In this document: positions 55,859 to 64,000 of the stretch, in pieces
Layout: every line of letters begins with the position of its first letter
Numbering within the stretch: the stretch's first letter is position 1
NCBI RefSeq assembly: GCF_000025225.2
Contig: NC_013895.2
Span: 1,488,001-1,552,000 of the forward strand
DNA length: 64,000 nucleotides
Direction: 5' to 3'
Source: Mageeibacillus indolicus UPII9-5
GTDB lineage: Bacteria; Bacillota; Clostridia; Saccharofermentanales; Fastidiosipilaceae
Made by a program: the position numbers and the translations under genes
The notes under the pieces: generated by a model
Seen by the model: the letters and a program-made list of their open reading frames with translations, nothing else
Databases searched by the model: none
Told to the model about the DNA's origin: nothing

Positions 55859-56638
55859 TCACCGATTTCGAGTGCCTTCCCGCAGAGATGACGGTGAAAT
55901 GTCAAGATACTTGCGAAAAACGGCGGAAAAATATTTATAGTCACTGAACCCGGTAAGTTCGGCTATTTCGTAGACGCGCATATCTGTGTTGCGCAGCAAG
56001 TGCAAGGCTACGCTGATACGGTAACGATTCAGGTAATCATTAACTGTGTAGCCGGTATCTTTTTTGAAAAGGCGGTTAATATATGTGTCTGAGATATTGA
56101 ACTCTCGGCATAGATCATTTAAACCGCACGGTTTCATATAATTCTTGGAAATATACAAAATAATTTGCTTGACCAGTTTATTTCGCGCTTCATGTTCAAC
56201 CGGCAGCAAATCCGGGATCGGGTTAGTGTCTACGGCCGCCAACTTCATCTCCGCTGCCCGTTGTAGGTCAAGACCGGACACAATTTTGGCCAGCAAATCC
56301 GAGAGTTCCTGATGGTCGATCGGCTTGAGCAAATAATCGGCGACCCCTAGCTTAATTGCTTGGCGAGCATATTCAAATTCAGAATAACCGGTCAGGATAA
56401 TCGCGGCAAAGCAGCGATTTTCTTCCCGTGCCAAGCGTAGCATTTCCACGCCGCTCAAGTGGGGCATACGAATGTCGGTAACTACTATATCGGGGTTTTC
56501 GCTTCTGATTAAATCTAAGCCTTCTTTCCCGTTGCCAGCTTCACCGACAACTATGCAGTTGTGCAAAGCCCAGTTTTGCGTAAACACTATGCCCTTGCGA
56601 ATAATTTTTTCGTCTTCCACCACAATAACTTTGTACAT
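55859..56638 (-). CDS. Response regulator with AraC output domain (YesN type)
   Basis: 259 residues. Receiver domain: acidic VVEDE near the start, phospho-acceptor Asp in DIVVTDIRMPHLSG near residue 54, LLKPID near 104. AraC double helix-turn-helix from about residue 155 (GLNDLCREFNISDTYINRLF, RVYEIAELTGFSDYKYFSAV). Compact compared with many YesN proteins (often 350-550), as the linker is short. The gene follows its kinase by 37 bp. AraC-type regulators paired with YesM kinases often serve adjacent ABC transporter genes. Confidence 0.93.
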   Translation of the reverse strand: MYKVIVVEDEKIIRKGIVFTQNWALHNCIVVGEAGNGKEGLDLIRSENPDIVVTDIRMPHLSGVEMLRLAREENRCFAAIILTGYSEFEYARQAIKLGVADYLLKPIDHQELSDLLAKIVSGLDLQRAAEMKLAAVDTNPIPDLLPVEHEARNKLVKQIILYISKNYMKPCGLNDLCREFNISDTYINRLFKKDTGYTVNDYLNRYRISVALHLLRNTDMRVYEIAELTGFSDYKYFSAVFRKYLDISPSSLREGTRNR

Positions 56639-56675
56639 TTATCAAGTTACCGCCTTTCAGGACAATTCCCGTCGT

Positions 56676-58787
56676 TCAATCGGACAGAGGTAAATATATG
56701 GTCACTGTTGTGCCTTTGCCGGGCGATGAGTTTACTTGAACCCGTCCACGCCGGCCGTAACGCAAATCAACTGTCTTAAACACATTATAAAGCCCGAAGG
56801 ACAAATGTTTGCCATCATTTTTTCCGGGGGGGACGGTTTTTTCTTGCGCTGATGCTGGCGAGGTTGCCTGGCGCATGTCTGCCACGTTGTCTGGCCGGAT
56901 ATCCTGCCGCGTGTCAGCTCCGGAGGCTGGCCGGCTGTCCGCTCCGGGAGCTGGCCGACTGTCCGCTCCGGGAGCTGGACGTATGTCCGGCTGCGTATTT
57001 ATCCCGGTTTCCGGTCGGGGTTCTGTCCGCATATTCGTCTCGGCGTCCTGCTGCGTGTCCGCTCTGGGAGCTAACCGGATGTCCGGTGACGTATCCCACC
57101 CGGTTTCCGGCCGCGTATCCCTCTGAATATCCAGCGAACAGATCTGAGCAAGTTTCGCCGGCGAAATGCCGGGACCATTATCTTCCACCCTTATTATAAG
57201 ATATTCAGATTCAACCATTACAGAAATATTTATCAGCACTCGGTCAACCTCATCAATCGAATAAGTAATCGCGTTTTCCACCAACGGCTGAATCAATAAT
57301 TTAGGAATTTCGATATTCGACAGCTCGGCCGGCAACTCTATGCGATAATCCAGCCGCTCATCGAAACGCATTTTTTGCAATTGCAGATAAGCTTCAATAT
57401 AACCCATGTCGGTAGAAAGACTGACCTCCGCCAACCCATAATTGACCGAATAGCGCAAAAGTCTAGCTAAACACCCCATCATCACCACCGCATTTGCCGG
57501 GTCAAAATCTATTTCATACCTTATAGTTTCCAAAGTATTAAATAAAAAATGCGGGCTAAATTTGGCCTCAAGATCTTTGATCTCCATCGCCCGTTTTACT
57601 TCCGCCAAAGCACAATTGCGCTCAAGAAGGGTCTTGATCTCGCCGGCCATCGCATTATACGCATTAAACAAAGTTTGAAATTCCGGATAAGTTTCCGCGG
57701 TAATATGGTAGGCATCTCCATCACCGGACTTACCGCCCAGGTGCAAAGCCAAATTCAATTCGCGAATCGGTTCGGTAAGTTTCTGGGACAGGCGGCGGGA
57801 AATAAAGAAGGTAAGTAAGCTTAATAAAATCTCCAATATGGTCATCAGCAACAATCCGACCTTTAAATTACCGGCGTATTCGGCAATATCCGCATAGCTG
57901 AGAATTTGCAATCGAGTATCGGCCAAAGTAAAACTGCTGCGCACGGTAGTCAAATGCCGCCAAATACGGTTGCCAGACTGCTGGTGGGCAAGGCGCGCTT
58001 TACCGATCGAATCTGTTGCCGATTGATCCGAGGAAAAGATCACATTGTCGAAACGGTCGGTAAGCAGGAGATCGACTTTGGCGGCGCGGACTTGCTCGAT
58101 CACCGTACCGGCCAAAGGTTCCAAAATCAGCTCTCCTTGCCCACAAGGGAAACGCAACAATAGCAGGCCAGGTCTTGCCGCGTAGCCATCCGTTTCGCGG
58201 CGTTCGACCGGAAGTGAGGCGTGCAGAGAACGCGGCACCGCTTGCACGGTCACGGGCAAATTTTCCCTATAATAAGTGCCAGAAAAGTTTTCGGCCTTGC
58301 GTGCGATATCCGCCCCGGTTAAACCTTCGGGGAATTTTCGATGCACCGCCTCAAACAAATTCGTAGCGATAACCTGCTTGTGTCCATCCAAAATATAAAA
58401 ATTACAGTCGAGTCCACTGTTCCGCCGAAAATCATACATCAGATTATATAGCCGATGCTCCGCTTCCCGCTCAGCCTTGCTTCCGGGCGCTGCTAAAGCG
58501 TATTGGGAAATATTCGGAGCTATCTTGGCCGCCGCTACCTTCCCAGCTGTTACCTGAGCGGTTGCCGCCCGGGTCAAGGCCGCAATCGACGCTTGATTAC
58601 TGATTTGTAAGCGGCTTTGCAACTCATTGAAGTAAAAGAAAGCACTGACGGAAAAATAGATCAGCATGGCCGCAGCAATCGCCGCGCTCACATACTTGAG
58701 GAATAGTCGCTGCACCTCCTGCCCGAACGTGGGACGAAGGGGAGCCGGGAATGAGGCTGACGTGTGTTTTTGTCGCATAGTTATCAT
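56676..58787 (-). CDS. Sensor histidine kinase (YesM type) with a repeat insertion in the ATP lid
   Basis: 703-residue membrane kinase. One helix at about 32-55, an extracellular sensor region (about 56-300), a second helix (about 308-326), HAMP, then the His_kinase domain with phospho-acceptor His in SPHFLFNTLETIRYE near residue 414. HATPase_c: N box LVENAITYSID near 507, G1 VEDNGPGIS near 540, G2 GLYNVFKTVDLRYG near 667, final GKGTTVTIYLPL. Between G1 and G2 are about 100 extra residues (about 552-650) of Arg/Pro/Asp-rich repeats such as RPAPGADS, coded by 24-bp DNA repeats. Starts at 58787 and 58778 are both possible; neither has a good ribosome site. The first 80 bp lie inside direct-repeat copy 1. 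Confidence 0.92.
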   Translation of the reverse strand: MITMRQKHTSASFPAPLRPTFGQEVQRLFLKYVSAAIAAAMLIYFSVSAFFYFNELQSRLQISNQASIAALTRAATAQVTAGKVAAAKIAPNISQYALAAPGSKAEREAEHRLYNLMYDFRRNSGLDCNFYILDGHKQVIATNLFEAVHRKFPEGLTGADIARKAENFSGTYYRENLPVTVQAVPRSLHASLPVERRETDGYAARPGLLLLRFPCGQGELILEPLAGTVIEQVRAAKVDLLLTDRFDNVIFSSDQSATDSIGKARLAHQQSGNRIWRHLTTVRSSFTLADTRLQILSYADIAEYAGNLKVGLLLMTILEILLSLLTFFISRRLSQKLTEPIRELNLALHLGGKSGDGDAYHITAETYPEFQTLFNAYNAMAGEIKTLLERNCALAEVKRAMEIKDLEAKFSPHFLFNTLETIRYEIDFDPANAVVMMGCLARLLRYSVNYGLAEVSLSTDMGYIEAYLQLQKMRFDERLDYRIELPAELSNIEIPKLLIQPLVENAITYSIDEVDRVLINISVMVESEYLIIRVEDNGPGISPAKLAQICSLDIQRDTRPETGWDTSPDIRLAPRADTQQDAETNMRTEPRPETGINTQPDIRPAPGADSRPAPGADSRPASGADTRQDIRPDNVADMRQATSPASAQEKTVPPGKNDGKHLSFGLYNVFKTVDLRYGRRGRVQVNSSPGKGTTVTIYLPLSD

Positions 58788-58982
58788 TAGCGGTGTGAGT
58801 CATCAGAGAGCCAGAATCATCGAACGCAACCGCGAACTCTCCTGCTGCCCGCTCCATCCTTTCCGTACGAATATATTATCATATGCTTGTACTCAAATAC
58901 TGATTTCTTTACGTCCTGATAACTTAAAGAATAACAGCAAAGATATGACAGATGTCAAGGTCAAAACCGTCAAAAAAGTGGC
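58705..58982. repeat. Long direct repeat flanking the cassette, copy 1
   Basis: 278 bp, about 95% identical to 62008-62289 by eye (roughly 14 substitutions plus one 4-bp indel near 58889). It covers the kinase 5' end, the intergenic DNA and the last 90 bp of an ABC permease gene. Here the kinase side is intact and the permease side is truncated. Homology starts at agtcgctg and ends at gtggc. Confidence 0.93.
58893..58982 (-). pseudogene. 3' remnant of the iron-type ABC permease gene
   Basis: Read on the minus strand this gives FLTVLTLTSVISLLLFFKLS, GRKEISI and a stop. It matches the C-terminus of the intact permease at 62200-63864 almost residue for residue. It has no start and ends at the repeat boundary. 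Confidence 0.88.
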
Positions 58983-58987
58983 TCCAA

Positions 58988-59095
58988 ACTGGATGTGTAA
59001 TCGCCGAAGAAGCGGACAAAAGGCAGAGAATTCAGAAACAGATCAAGGAGGTGAAACAGTGGATGGATCACCTTTTGGGAATGCACGTAGTTTGA
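58988..59095 (+). pseudogene. 3' remnant of an unidentified gene at the cassette's left edge
   Basis: A frame with no start, opening right after the repeat boundary: TGCVIAEEADKRQRIQKQIK, then EVKQWMDHLLGMHVV and TGA at 59093-59095. The amphipathic, charged helix looks like the end of a real soluble protein, perhaps a regulator, but no family is assignable from 35 residues. The same DNA carries AAGGAGGTGA (59044-59053) ahead of a GTG, which could serve a 20-codon frame. I think this is chance. Confidence 0.4.
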
Positions 59096-59118
59096 ATCGA
59101 TATTCAAACCTTTTATTG

Positions 59119-59134
59119 ATTTGATTAATCAAAT
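59119..59134. promoter_or_regulatory. Perfect 16-bp palindrome upstream of the cassette promoter
   Basis: atttgattaatcaaat, ending 2 bp before the -35 box. Its symmetry and position fit a regulator site. Regulator unknown. Confidence 0.5.
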
Positions 59135-59136
59135 GC

Positions 59137-59165
59137 TTGACTGTTAGAAATTACAGCAGTACAAT
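59137..59165 (+). promoter_or_regulatory. Sigma-A-type promoter of the secreted-protein/ABC cassette
   Basis: TTGACT (59137-59142), 17-bp spacer, TACAAT (59160-59165): one mismatch in each box. Expected start about 59172, leaving a 57-nt leader before the ATG at 59229. Confidence 0.75.
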
Positions 59166-59176
59166 AAGTTCAGTTA

Positions 59177-59207
59177 TACAACATGTTCAAGAGTACAACA
59201 TGTTCAA
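59177..59207. promoter_or_regulatory. Direct repeat in the cassette leader (operator candidate)
   Basis: tacaacatgttcaa at 59177-59190 and again at 59194-59207, a 17-bp period, each copy holding the palindrome acatgt. It lies just after the expected transcription start and before GGAAAGGAG. Confidence 0.5.
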
Positions 59208-59228
59208 AATGCGGAAAGGAGATTCATT

Positions 59229-59627
59229 ATGAAAAGGCTTATGAAGTACTCAGCTGTAGCTTTAGCTCTGATGTTATTTATCGGTGGAGCAACATTTGTT
59301 TCTGCTAGAAACATAGCTGAATATGACGTGGTGATGCCAAGATTTGGTGGTGCCACTTATACTGACACACTTACCAAAACAAATCAAAGTCGTGCGGTAA
59401 ATAACAATGGTTCTATTGGTGGTGGTTACAAAATGAACTGTGCGGTTTATTGGGGAAGTGACAAGATTACTGAGGATTACTCATTAACATCCGGATCACG
59501 CATTCTGATTCCTTACAATGAAGCATATAACTTTGTTGATAGCAATGTAAAGCTTGGCATGTGGACTGGTTTAACGACTTATGTAAAAGTTGCAGCAAGT
59601 GGTTCTTGGAGCCCTGATGAGAATTAA
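59229..59627 (+). CDS. Small secreted protein, DUF2712-like
   Basis: 132-residue exported protein. Signal peptide MKRLMKYSAVALALMLFIGG, likely cleavage at FVSA-RN, leaving about 105 residues that are Gly/Ser/Thr/Asn-rich with an alternating beta pattern and only one Cys. It ends GSWSPDEN, which resembles the end of DUF2712-type secreted proteins I recall beside ABC transporter genes in Firmicutes. Bacteriocin, toxin or signal are possible roles, none shown. Strong GGAAAGGAG before the ATG and its own promoter. A terminator after it separates it from the ABC genes. Base composition is more AT-rich than that of flanking genes. Confidence 0.72.
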   Translation: MKRLMKYSAVALALMLFIGGATFVSARNIAEYDVVMPRFGGATYTDTLTKTNQSRAVNNNGSIGGGYKMNCAVYWGSDKITEDYSLTSGSRILIPYNEAYNFVDSNVKLGMWTGLTTYVKVAASGSWSPDEN

Positions 59628-59649
59628 TCACGGGCAAGCAATAGTACAT

Positions 59650-59679
59650 AAAGGGGGAGGCTTCCACCTTCCCCTTTTT
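59650..59679 (+). terminator. Intrinsic terminator between the secreted-protein gene and the ABC genes
   Basis: Stem aaagggg.agg / cctt.ccccttt (59650-59660 with 59667-59677), a 6-nt loop and a run of five T. It should let only part of the transcription reach the ABC genes, giving much secreted protein and little transporter. Confidence 0.75.
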
Positions 59680-59708
59680 AATTCCATATTGTTTTTTGGG
59701 GGAATTAC

Positions 59709-60482
59709 ATGAAAAACAAGAAGTTGATGTTTAAGCATTTGTTTGGATTTAGAATGTTGCTCAGTATCATTCTTTGCTTATTATCAATGAGCATTGTTTC
59801 TTTCCAGAATGCCGGGCAAGAATATTTCAAAAATAAGACTAGTTTTATAGCCTTTAGTGATGGTTACTTTAACTCTTTACTTCCGTTTATGGTTTTCATT
59901 GCTTGCGCTCTTCCGGCAGCTGACATATACGCATCTCACAAGTCATCTGGGATGTTACGGTATTTCATCACTAGAACAGGGAGGAAACGTTATTTCATAG
60001 AAATTTTTCTCATCAATGCCATATGTGCCTTTGTAGCATTGTTTATAGCATTCTCTATTTGGGTGCTTATTTCAGTTCTGTTGTGTACAGGGAAGCCTAA
60101 TTTAGATCTGGAACTGAACCATACGCAACAATATACTTACGCCTCTCTCTATCTGATTTCACCTACTATGTATGTATTGATGGCCATTCTACACGGGTCA
60201 ATCTTTAGTGCCGTATTTGCAACACTGGCTCTAGCGTTGACTTTTTACGTGCCTAAAAAATTTGTTGCTTGGGTTTCACCCGCCTTAATTTCCATCTTTT
60301 TATCATTGGTGGCCATGTTTTTACACCTGACTCACTTTGAGCCCAGTGTGATGTTTGCATTTACCAAGGTTGGGCATCTTAATGCAGTTTTAGTGTGGTG
60401 CTCTTGGTTAATCATCATTTTAGCTAGCGTCATTCTCGCTTGGCTAAAATTCATGACAACCAAGAACATTCAAGGAGAGTAA
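59709..60482 (+). CDS. ABC-2-like permease A of the cassette
   Basis: 257-residue membrane protein with six hydrophobic segments (for example MLLSIILCLLSMSIVSF, INAICAFVALFIAFSIWVLI). The pattern is that of ABC-2-type or lantibiotic-immunity-type permeases. Lys-rich N-terminus (MKNKKLMFKHLFGFR) and a GGGGGAA ribosome site. Sits 82 bp after the secreted-protein gene, past the terminator. Export of, or protection from, the secreted protein is inferred from linkage. Confidence 0.75.
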   Translation: MKNKKLMFKHLFGFRMLLSIILCLLSMSIVSFQNAGQEYFKNKTSFIAFSDGYFNSLLPFMVFIACALPAADIYASHKSSGMLRYFITRTGRKRYFIEIFLINAICAFVALFIAFSIWVLISVLLCTGKPNLDLELNHTQQYTYASLYLISPTMYVLMAILHGSIFSAVFATLALALTFYVPKKFVAWVSPALISIFLSLVAMFLHLTHFEPSVMFAFTKVGHLNAVLVWCSWLIIILASVILAWLKFMTTKNIQGE

Positions 60483-60486
60483 GATC

Positions 60487-61272
60487 ATGAAAAGCAAAAA
60501 GGTATTTTCATTCCTGATCTATAGCTTCACCGGGTTAGTTTTGTTATTTAGCTTAAGCCAAGTTGTTGGAATTATAAGCAAGTATGGTAAATTCTCATAT
60601 GGCGAATTAACTGCCTATTTTTTAAATGATAGCTATACAGGATTTTTCACTTTTCCCTTTTGCTTGGGTGCTTTGCTAGTTAATCAAACGCAAAAAGAGT
60701 CAAATCTTTATTTTATTATGTCGAGGTATAAAAGCCGTATAGTATATATTCTTAAACGAATAAGTAATTGCTCGATTATTGCTTTGAAATACTATGCGAT
60801 CATATTGTTTTTGTCAATCTTATCGTGTATTAGCAATTCACTGTTTAATAGCAAAACATCTGATGCATTTCAAGAGCTAGCGAAAACTTTTACAACCAAG
60901 CCTGCCACTATCTCTAAAAGTGTTTTTTCAACCGCTCTACAGAGTGGACTTGCTTATCTGATGGTGATAATAATTTTAGTCTTATTCTTCCTGTTACTAA
61001 CGCAGACCAAATTAAATGGCGCAGCTATTTTTGCTGTTTTCAGTGTAACCATCATGATAAACGCTTTTGCTTGTCTTGGCTTTTTTGGCAATATTTTTAG
61101 TAATGCCAATCTCTTTGCTCTCCTACTTCCTCTACAGAGCACACATCATTTCAGTCTAGAAGTACTGATAGGTATATGTGGAATCTTACTACTGCTAAGC
61201 CTTAACATCTTGCTAATTTGTAAGCGCGACTTGGTTCTACCAAAGTCTAACAAAAATTATGAAACGGAGTGA
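60487..61272 (+). CDS. ABC-2-like permease B of the cassette
   Basis: 261-residue protein with six hydrophobic segments, no close sequence resemblance to permease A. GGAGAG 7 nt before the ATG; 4 bp after the previous stop. The two permeases probably form a heterodimer. Rich in AT-ending codons, unlike the dcw genes. Confidence 0.75.
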   Translation: MKSKKVFSFLIYSFTGLVLLFSLSQVVGIISKYGKFSYGELTAYFLNDSYTGFFTFPFCLGALLVNQTQKESNLYFIMSRYKSRIVYILKRISNCSIIALKYYAIILFLSILSCISNSLFNSKTSDAFQELAKTFTTKPATISKSVFSTALQSGLAYLMVIIILVLFFLLLTQTKLNGAAIFAVFSVTIMINAFACLGFFGNIFSNANLFALLLPLQSTHHFSLEVLIGICGILLLLSLNILLICKRDLVLPKSNKNYETE

Positions 61273-61275
61273 ACG

Positions 61276-61914
61276 ATGGATAATTTTGCAATTGAGCTCA
61301 AGGGATTATCTAAGAACTATGGGAAAAGAAACATTTTTGAAAACACCTCATATGCTTTTGAGACTGGGAAAAGCTACGGAATCGTTGGTCCTAATGGATC
61401 CGGTAAAAGCGTACTTTTTAAACTGATTGCCGGTTTAACACTCCCAACATTAGGTAAAATTTTTGTTGAAGGAAAACAAATAGCAGTATTGGGTTCTTTG
61501 CCAGAGAGTATTGGCTACATAATTGAGAATCCCGGTTTTTTACCTGAACTCTCCGGTTTTAAAAATTTAGAGATATTATCTGGGATTAGAGGCTTAGTTG
61601 GTGCCAGTGATATTAAGCAAATGCTTGAAAAAGTTGGCTTGTCTGAATCCATGGATATAAAAACCCAAAATTATTCGTTGGGAATGTTGCAGCGTTTGGC
61701 GTTAGCACAAGCCTTATTGGAGCACCCTCGTATTTTACTTCTTGATGAACCCTTTAATAGCATCGATAAGGAAGGCGTTGCTGAATTGCGCCAAGTAATT
61801 CTCAACTATCAAAAAGAATATGATGCCACAATTTTGCTTACCTCTCATAACGAGGATGATATCCGTTTTTTCAATAGTAAAATTGTGTATATTCGTGATC
61901 ATCAGCTTGTTTAA
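61276..61914 (+). CDS. ABC transporter ATPase of the cassette
   Basis: 212-residue ATP-binding subunit, complete. Walker A GPNGSGKSVLFK near residue 40, Q-loop region YIIENPGFLPELSGFKNL, signature YSLGMLQRLALAQAL (Ser-Leu-Gly-Met in place of SGGQ, as in several exporter and immunity ATPases), Walker B RILLLDEPFNSID, H-loop LLTSHNEDD. Starts 3 bp after permease B. Together these three genes make a full transporter. Confidence 0.93.
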   Translation: MDNFAIELKGLSKNYGKRNIFENTSYAFETGKSYGIVGPNGSGKSVLFKLIAGLTLPTLGKIFVEGKQIAVLGSLPESIGYIIENPGFLPELSGFKNLEILSGIRGLVGASDIKQMLEKVGLSESMDIKTQNYSLGMLQRLALAQALLEHPRILLLDEPFNSIDKEGVAELRQVILNYQKEYDATILLTSHNEDDIRFFNSKIVYIRDHQLV

Positions 61915-61949
61915 CGATATAAGCTGAATTATTCATCTCTTTCCCACAT

Positions 61950-62090
61950 CTACTTCGCTCCGCCGGAGGATTTTTTGTTACCTGATTCTCTTCCCACTAG
62001 GAGAAACAGTCGCTGGACCTCCTGCCCGAACGTGGGCCGAAGGGGAGCTGGGAATGAGGCTGACGTGTGTTTTTGTCGCATAGTTTTCAT
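61950..62090 (-). pseudogene. 5' remnant of the histidine kinase gene
   Basis: From the ATG at 62090 or 62081 the frame gives MRQKHTSASFPAPLRPTFGQ, EVQRLF, identical to the N-terminus of the intact kinase. It then leaves homology at the repeat edge (62008), continues LLVGRESGNKKSSGGAK and stops at 61950. Not functional as a kinase. Confidence 0.88.
61957..61976 (+). terminator. Weak terminator after the cassette
   Basis: ctcc-gcc-ggag mini-hairpin followed by ga and six T, 43 bp after the ATPase stop. The stem is short, so efficiency is doubtful. Confidence 0.35.
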
Positions 62091-62289
62091 TAGCGGCGTG
62101 AGTCATCAGAGAGTCAGAATCATCGAACGCGACCGCGAACGCCCCTGTTGCCCGCTCCATCCTTTCCGTACGAACATATTATCATATGCTTATGTATGCT
62201 CAAATACTGATTTCTTTACGTCCTGATAACTTAAAGAATAACAGCAAAGATATGACAGATGTCAAGGTCAAGACCGTCGAAAAAGCGGC
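62008..62289. repeat. Long direct repeat flanking the cassette, copy 2
   Basis: 282-bp partner of 58705-58982. Here the permease end is intact and the kinase side is truncated, the reverse of copy 1. Carries a 4-bp insertion near 62194 relative to copy 1. Confidence 0.93.
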
Positions 62290-63864
62290 GGCATTGCCAT
62301 AATTACCCCTGATGACCTCAGTATAAATAGCGACGGTGAGCGTTTTAGTACCGCTAGTGTACAAAATAACGGACGAGCTTAACTCACTGATTACCGTAAT
62401 CCAACTCATCAAGGCCCCGGAAATAACTCCCGGCAGCATCATCGGCAAGGTAACATCCGCAAAAGCTTTGAACTCCCCGGATCCCAAACTGATTGCCGCT
62501 TCTTCCATGCTTGGGCTGATCTGCGCTATAATCGCCGAACTTGAACGAATAGTGTAAGCCAACCGCCGCATCATTAAGCTGATGATTATAATTATTGCCG
62601 TGCCGCTAATCATGATCGGCGGCGCATTGAACGCGAAAATAAAAGAAATACCCAAAACTGAGCCTGGAATAATATACGGCAACATGGATATCGTATCCAA
62701 AGCCCCCGTCAACGCATTACGCTTCCGCTTAGCCATATATGCGACTAAAACACCGAAAACGATTATGAGAATTATCGCAGCCAAGCCAAACAAATAAGTG
62801 TTTCTTATAACATAAGCCTGCCCTGAGCCCAAAATATTTCGATAGCTTTGCAAAGAAAAACCGGGCAAAAACACCTGACCGCCGCGATTCTTCAAAAAAG
62901 AAGTGACGATAACGACAATCTGCGGCAAGATGGCGATAAAAGTCAGCAAGTACACGAACAAGTGAGTCACGCCATTCGAGATTCCGTGCAATTTACGTTG
63001 CTGAATCGGCCGCAAAGCCGTCATCGAATAGGAAAAAATGTTACCGGCAATCTTTTGAGCAATAAATATTACCCCGACAACAATAATTGCAATCACACAC
63101 AAAGCTGCGGCAAAGCCATCATCGCCGCCGACCTCACTCATAAACGAGTTATAAATCAAAACCGGCATGGTTTTATAACCTTCACCAATGAGCATAGGCG
63201 TACCGAAATCGGCAAATACTCGAGCAAACACCAACAACGCTCCGGCTAACAAGCTGGGCATGACCAAGGGAACGATTACCGTAAAGAACCGTTTCAGGCC
63301 GCTACTTCCTAGACTTTCCGCCGCCTCACTGAGCGAACTGTCCATGTTTTTCATAGCCCCCGAAATGTACATGAACACTAGCGGGAATGACTGCATTGAC
63401 ATGACCAAAACGATGCCAGCGAACCCATAAATACCCCCGTAATGTATGTGAAAAGCACTGCTCAGCAAACGCGTAATTATCCCGTTACGCCCGAGCAACT
63501 GAATCCAAGCATAAGCCCCGATGAACGGCGGCGAAAGATAAGCGATGATGCAAAGAATGTTGATCAAACTGATATTCTTTATCTTATACATCCTTGTCAG
63601 ATAAGCCATAGGCAAACCAATGAGCACAGAAATTATCGTAGCCGTCAACGTTACTTTAAAGCTGTGCAAAATATTCACCCAGTAGAACTTTTTGGCAAAA
63701 AAGCGCGCGAAGTTACTTAAGGTGACCTGCGCCGTCCCCTGATCGACAAAACTCTTGTAGAGAATCAAAACCAACGGATACAGCAAAAAAATCAGAAAAA
63801 CAAGCAGAACTGCCAGAGAAACCCAGATCCAAACTCCACTTGTTCCTTTTTCACGCTTCTTCAT
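62200..63864 (-). CDS. Iron(III)-type ABC transporter permease, duplicated (FbpB-like)
   Basis: About 554-residue permease of the FbpB/SfuB class, in which two six-helix permease units are fused. Both EAA loops are visible: LSEAAESLGSSGLKRFFTVI and MEEAAISLGSGEFKAFADVT. The ATG at 63864 has GGAGGAGG about 8 nt upstream and overlaps the ATPase stop by 14 bp. Class members import Fe3+, thiamine, polyamines or phosphonates; the substrate is not decided here. Its last 90 bp lie in direct-repeat copy 2. The kinase/regulator pair probably followed it directly before the cassette arrived. Confidence 0.9.
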   Translation of the reverse strand: MKKREKGTSGVWIWVSLAVLLVFLIFLLYPLVLILYKSFVDQGTAQVTLSNFARFFAKKFYWVNILHSFKVTLTATIISVLIGLPMAYLTRMYKIKNISLINILCIIAYLSPPFIGAYAWIQLLGRNGIITRLLSSAFHIHYGGIYGFAGIVLVMSMQSFPLVFMYISGAMKNMDSSLSEAAESLGSSGLKRFFTVIVPLVMPSLLAGALLVFARVFADFGTPMLIGEGYKTMPVLIYNSFMSEVGGDDGFAAALCVIAIIVVGVIFIAQKIAGNIFSYSMTALRPIQQRKLHGISNGVTHLFVYLLTFIAILPQIVVIVTSFLKNRGGQVFLPGFSLQSYRNILGSGQAYVIRNTYLFGLAAIILIIVFGVLVAYMAKRKRNALTGALDTISMLPYIIPGSVLGISFIFAFNAPPIMISGTAIIIIISLMMRRLAYTIRSSSAIIAQISPSMEEAAISLGSGEFKAFADVTLPMMLPGVISGALMSWITVISELSSSVILYTSGTKTLTVAIYTEVIRGNYGNAAAFSTVLTLTSVISLLLFFKLSGRKEISI

Positions 63865-64000
63865 GCTCTGCCTCCTCCGGTCCGCCAACCTTAAGCACGC
63901 AAGTTTCCATTACCACGCTCTTTTCGGTTACCGGATCAAAAACATTAATCTTGTCGCCTTTAATTTTCAAACTTAGATGTTCGCCTTTAACCAGACGCTG
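63851..64000 (-). CDS. ABC transporter ATPase, C-terminal end (gene runs off the window)
   Basis: The last 49 codons, QRLVKGEHLSLKIKGDKINV then FDPVTEKSVVMETCVLKVGG and stop at 63851. This is the TOBE-type end of an FbpC/PotA-like ATPase. It overlaps the permease start, so the two are translationally coupled. Confidence 0.82.
   Translation of the reverse strand, partial: QRLVKGEHLSLKIKGDKINVFDPVTEKSVVMETCVLKVGGPEEAEHEEA

Follow-up and report, generated by a model that had tools for sequence, protein, structure and literature searches.

Among the described systems with which the locus was compared, the lactococcin 972 family (Lcn972 of pBL1, streptococcin B) is similar in its plan, since it combines a small unmodified Sec-exported protein with permease and ATPase genes that follow it and are thought to give immunity, on a plasmid of ~10 kb. 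Lactococcin 972 binds lipid II (PMC8538875) and is carried by the 11-kb plasmid pBL1 (PMC4055356), and the function of the two downstream genes in lactococcin 972 loci has been described as not experimentally verified (PMC11796350). A second similarity is to the LanFEG transporters of lantibiotic loci (NisFEG, SpaFEG, EpiFEG), in which a small ATPase with a glutamate at the Q-loop position and two dissimilar permeases are encoded beside the structural gene; five relatives of the locus described here additionally resemble nisin and subtilin loci by an OmpR-type regulator and a kinase directly upstream. Such an E-loop is a mark of the LanF (lantibiotic-immunity) and bacitracin-type ATPases. AS-48 and aureocin A53, in turn, are bacteriocins of the circular or leaderless kind, which lack a Sec signal. 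Their producers are likewise protected by ABC transporters (PMC8538875), and NisFEG expels nisin from the membrane, for which it depends on, or recognises, the nisin C-terminus (PMC4234265).

The window, which is the whole analysed stretch of 64,000 nucleotides, contains at 59229-61914 a cassette of four genes. As read from the open reading frames, the first product is exported by Sec, the next two are membrane proteins of dissimilar sequence, and the last is an ABC ATPase (Table 1). The four reading frames of the initial annotation, with sizes of 132, 257, 261 and 212 aa, were found in place, as were the signal peptide and the Gly/Ser/Asn-rich mature part with its GSWSPDEN end. The Sec signal is supported by alignment and hydropathy, and its cleavage after residue 26 was placed by eye. 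The ATPase is the sole cassette gene with a family match (ABC_tran, E 1.4e-29), and no family in Pfam, NCBIfam or PHROG covers the secreted protein, permease A or permease B; the coding status of these three genes is supported because conserved homologues occur elsewhere in the same order. Two unlike membrane proteins are thus present as initially annotated, but neither matches the Pfam ABC-2 membrane domain or has a solved relative by sequence, and we term them ABC-2-like by size, hydropathy and context. We consider it moderately probable that the cassette, which was acquired horizontally, is a self-contained antagonism unit that pairs a bacteriocin-like protein, unmodified and exported by Sec, with an ABC-2/LanFEG-like pump for self-protection.

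Table 1. Features of the cassette and its flanks, in window positions.
Feature	Position	Strand	Description or support
Left flanking direct repeat	58698..58982		5' end of kinase gene, intergenic region, relic of permease 3' end
Perfect 16-bp palindrome	59119..59134		ATTTGATTAATCAAAT; just 5' of the promoter-like site
Promoter-like site	59137..59165	+	TTGACT-17-TACAAT; 10/12 match, not above chance
14-bp direct repeat, operator-like	59177..59207 (copies at 59177, 59194)	+	TACAACATGTTCAA
Shine-Dalgarno of secreted gene	59215..59221	+	AAAGGAG
Secreted protein, candidate bacteriocin-like effector	59229..59627	+	132 aa; ORF, homologues in 15 other independently found loci
Predicted signal peptide	59229..59306	+	MKRLMKYSAVALALMLFIGGATFVSA; aligned with signal peptides of relatives
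C-terminal GSWSPDEN motif	59601..59624	+	Sequence, comparison with relatives
Hairpin followed by T run	59650..59677	+	Follows the secreted gene, ahead of permease A; probably terminates transcription in part or serves mRNA processing
Permease A, ABC-2-like	59709..60482	+	257 aa; homologue in every readable family locus, reciprocal search
Permease B, multi-spanning	60487..61272	+	261 aa; counterpart in many relatives is a 503-520 aa protein
ABC ATPase	61276..61914	+	212 aa; glutamate at Q-loop position; PF00005, E 1.4e-29
Right flanking direct repeat	62001..62289		3' end of intact iron-type permease gene, truncated kinase 5' end

A direct search with the secreted protein gave nothing in the named genomes; a whole-genome search found a relative at 27% identity, and stepwise profiles then added further ones. 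In all 15 loci found via the secreted protein alone (10 chromosomal and five Bacillales plasmid records, the window locus excluded), a permease homologue adjoins the secreted gene, and nearly all readable loci among them also have further permease genes and an ATPase, so that the initial question of whether homologues always neighbour two permeases and an ATPase was answered in favour of the initial reading. Two additional secreted-protein loci end at a contig edge and stand outside this count. In four Clostridia, which belong to another family of the same order as the host, and in G576, the genes run in the order regulator, kinase, secreted protein, permease A, second permease (513-520 aa) and ATPase. 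The module also occurs in G741, G599, G854 and G917 and on plasmids of Priestia and Planococcus, two of which are smaller than 10 kb. The secreted gene is divergent from the pump genes in four of the five plasmid records (three from Priestia, which share one locus, and one from Planococcus), and because a divergently transcribed secreted gene stays linked there, the linkage is not a mere accident of operon structure. In G280, a frameshifted secreted gene adjoins intact pump genes. No homologue of the secreted protein was found in phage records or viral contigs, and a match in G018 had an E of 0.03. Profile matches in G325, G744, G585 and G803 were treated as chance, as they cover the N-terminal half only, and the two of these loci that were read, G325 and G744, have no such pump next to the match. 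The module is found twice in G741 (L034, L035), near both ends of contig C1 and flanked by transposase-like ORFs, which may reflect an assembly overlap or a terminal duplication. On the Priestia plasmids (L024:7716-8753, also L025 and L027), the secreted gene is followed by a gene for an exported protein of 345 aa that matches no Pfam family.

The linkage was also found when the search was started from the pump. A profile of permease A matched in 12 further genomes at E ~1e-9 or better, two of which end at the contig edge and are unreadable. Seven of the ten readable loci encode an intact small exported protein (G737, G711, G785, G722, G589, G767, G747), in two of them, G722 and G747, with another ORF between it and permease A. 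Two loci have a broken exported gene, namely G761 with a C-terminal relic beside an insertion element and an intact pump, and G848 with an in-frame stop, and in G843 no small exported protein is visible beside the permease. As a control, the same crude rule applied to 20 other ABC loci of the host genome found a small exported non-lipoprotein neighbour in none. Several neighbours of homologous permeases carry a recurrent WSPD[S/E] or GxW at the C-terminus, and the exported proteins of two plasmid loci, one in Vescimonas and one in Lactococcus, end in or near WSPDS, compared with WSPDEN in the window. In one branch of the family, the ATPase is followed by a membrane-anchored protein of ~230 aa with only a weak DUF2314 match (L067:8798-9481, L068:8810-9517, L069:2706-3377, L071:2567-3256, L072:5851-6555, L129:9696-10445), possibly a second immunity factor.

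At the Q-loop position, each of the 23 ATPases of the family carries E, N or D and none carries Q, as opposed to Q in 17 of 19 controls, which include the true Lcn972 ATPase of the same genome. The best NCBIfam model for the window ATPase is TIGR03740 (lantibiotic-protection); however, unlike in LanFEG, its 152.5 bits are half the cut-off of 309.75, and the permeases match no curated model. The locus further differs from LanFEG loci in that genes for lanthionine formation, a leader protease or dedicated export are missing and in that the effector would be an unmodified protein with a predicted beta-sandwich fold. The ORFs surrounding the cassette include no recognisable gene for a lantibiotic precursor or its modification, and those of 55859-64000 include none for modification or a leader peptidase, in agreement with the initial reading that a leader-peptidase gene is lacking. 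From AS-48 and aureocin A53 the window protein is set apart by its Sec signal. Another E-loop ATPase of the same genome (G000:C1:1735113-1735703, L079) lies near a 279-aa permease and a divergent gene pair sized like a regulator and a kinase, and this is possibly a lantibiotic or bacitracin-type resistance locus.

Membership of the cassette in the lactococcin 972 family was ruled out by sequence and transporter type. Neither the window protein nor its relatives match PF09683, and the mature part is longer here. Lcn972 loci have one permease of ~730 aa and a Q-loop ATPase, in contrast to the 257- and 261-aa permeases and E-loop ATPase of the cassette; in the family described here, an E-loop ATPase is combined with ABC-2-like permeases, of which there are two or three. 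The PF09683 search of the genome identified a different gene at 1257335 as part of a true lactococcin 972 locus, in which the PF09683 gene (G000:C1:1257315-1257560, equal to L042:7315-7560, - strand, E 9e-11) is followed by genes for a permease of 733 aa and an ATPase of 225 aa. Both systems, a lactococcin 972 locus and a member of the cassette family, are likewise present in G576.

Structure prediction gave an eight-stranded beta-sandwich for the mature domain of a relative that is ~25% identical to the window protein (pLDDT 89.7, pTM 0.84); the window protein itself, modelled with signal peptides, reached a pLDDT of 49, and this model was not used. The fold search with the model of the relative placed the nearest solved folds at Z 7-10, the best with a Z of 9.6 to a GOLD domain, followed by carbohydrate-binding modules, furin P-domains and PirA. 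Because no match stands clear and the arrangement is common, no function was read from the fold; the Lcn972 structure is absent from the list of matches, an absence that carries no weight. The carbohydrate-binding modules CBM6 and CBM86 among the matches (Z 7-8.5) could point to a surface or matrix factor, in which the exported protein would serve adhesion or glycan binding and the ABC genes would move the protein or a glycan to the surface. However, a Z of ~8 is typical of unrelated beta-sandwiches, a protein with its own Sec signal does not need ABC export, and none of the neighbouring genes read was recognisable as serving glycan synthesis, so that we regard such a role as very unlikely.

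The same fold is relevant to another explanation, according to which the pump detoxifies an envelope-active antibiotic made by others and the exported protein is its helper, be it a shield, a decoy or a ligand-binding subunit. Beta-sandwiches of this shape are common ligand-binding modules, E-loop ATPases also occur in bacitracin-type resistance pumps, and a shared machine would fit the observation that the protein and the pump strictly co-occur and evolve at similar rates. This explanation is nevertheless unlikely, since the pump is kept where the exported gene is lost in two loci, four plasmid records show divergent transcription, and the protein has no lipobox, in which it differs from LanI and from typical Gram-positive ABC binding proteins.

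DUF2712 (PF10916) had been named initially as a family to be searched, and we know of no function for it; the literature search found no paper on it. The window protein gives no match to PF10916 up to E = 1 (membership score 22 bits), nor does any other protein of this genome, and direct membership was therefore rejected. However, G722 encodes a genuine DUF2712 protein (E 1.8e-14) in the same slot beside a homologous permease set, both families share the WSPD C-terminal motif, and hhalign aligns the window family with DUF2712 at a probability of 79-85%, albeit with shallow profiles and partly over the signal peptide. DUF2712 is treated here as no more than a putative distant relation of the window protein. 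Within the secreted-protein family, conservation is among the highest in the C-terminal region. Tentatively, and with somewhat less confidence than would make it probable, we propose a widespread Bacillota bacteriocin class of unmodified Sec-exported beta-sandwich proteins, DUF2712 included, each with a producer-protecting LanFEG-like pump that would read a conserved C-terminal G-x-W-(S-P-D) tail.

For the window cassette, the mechanism that we favour would be as follows. The 132-aa protein would be exported by the general Sec pathway and lose its signal peptide, and the mature part of ~106 aa, folded as a small beta-sandwich as predicted from a relative, would be a bacteriocin-like protein that needs no modification and targets the envelope of related Gram-positive bacteria. 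Together, both permeases and the ATPase would form an ABC-2/LanFEG-like pump that does not secrete the protein and instead clears or displaces it from the membrane or cell wall of the producer, thereby giving self-protection; in doing so the pump may recognise the conserved C-terminus of the protein. An envelope target is a fair guess and no more, made because lactococcin 972, which is also small, unmodified and exported, binds lipid II. An effector with a protective pump would explain why the pairing is strict, why small plasmids carry the module, why the genes can be divergent, why the pump survives loss of the effector, and why a hairpin that would favour the first gene follows it. On the other hand, no member of the secreted-protein family is a characterised bacteriocin, and the secreted protein was not seen to evolve faster than the pump, whereas many bacteriocins diversify faster: in a comparison of four close relatives, its conservation (70-87%) is similar to that of permease A (75-88%). 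Regulators that possibly sense the environment also adjoin many loci, which leaves room for a stress-response role.

Such regulators speak for a further alternative, in which the exported protein would signal to the population or to the producer itself, would be sensed by a two-component or sigma/anti-sigma system encoded next to it, and would be recycled or cleared by the pump. In five relatives a two-component system, made up of an OmpR-type regulator and a kinase, lies directly upstream of the module, on a Peribacillus plasmid the permease gene comes after LytTR/GHKL genes, and genes for a sigma factor and an anti-sigma-like protein adjoin the module in L099 and L129. However, no dedicated sensor is evident in the window locus or on the small plasmids, a folded domain of 106 aa is large for a pheromone, the pump is constant whereas the regulators are of unrelated kinds between loci, and regulators beside bacteriocin loci are common anyway, which makes signalling quite unlikely. 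The initial annotation had left it at self-protection or sensing by the transporter; self-protection fits better because G280 and G761 have kept the pump although their secreted gene is lost and because dedicated regulators are present in many other loci and not in this one. In the two loci with a sigma factor, which belong to G917 and a Vescimonas fastidiosa plasmid, a second small exported protein is encoded together with the sigma factor and the anti-sigma-like protein directly upstream of the module (L129:4219-6060, L099:3684-5333).

Regarding expression, the hairpin between the first and second genes has a dinucleotide-shuffle z of -2.7 and recurs at the equivalent position after the first gene in 9 of 13 loci. 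The internal terminator that was annotated initially is thus a real hairpin, probably a partial terminator or an mRNA-processing element, by which more effector than pump would be made. The own promoter is only plausible: the -35/-10 match exists, but promoter-like sites in the region are not in excess over shuffled sequences (9 found vs. 11.7 expected). The palindrome and the direct repeat exist as putative operator-like sites.

If the favoured reading is true, the family libraries searched here have missed a class of small exported antibacterial proteins, DUF2712 would gain a function, and a simple pair of an unmodified protein and a pump would be available for asking how LanFEG-like pumps counter a substrate that is already external. 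The host is probably vaginosis-associated and has a separate lactococcin 972 locus, and the cassette would thus bear on competition in that community.

The cassette is horizontally acquired, as judged from its composition, its flanking repeats and a relative that lacks it at this site. No other 3 kb of the window is as rich in A+T (37% G+C vs. a mean of 45%). The cassette is bracketed by two 289-bp direct repeats that are 93% identical and have no further copy anywhere else in the genome, and splits a permease-kinase gene pair or operon. In each repeat, the intergenic space lies between the 3' end of a gene for an iron-type permease and the 5' end of one for a sensor kinase, and the related genome G005 has two permease loci in which the kinase gene directly follows the permease and the cassette is absent. 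As to whether the cassette is a transposon, no transposase lies inside it or directly adjoining it within the window. Between the kinase ends of the two repeat copies there are five silent codon differences and a single replacement, and since these differences are mostly silent, the second copy seems to stem from a working gene of a diverged strain. We infer that homologous recombination brought the cassette in, from donor DNA in which it already occupied this site; the mostly silent differences suggest recombination with a diverged donor and not decay of a duplicate. The sensor-kinase gene itself (- strand, 56676-58787) contains in-frame degenerate 24-nt repeats at 56870-57073 of the window, which encode units of ~8 aa resembling PAPGADSR between the ATP-binding motifs of the HATPase domain.
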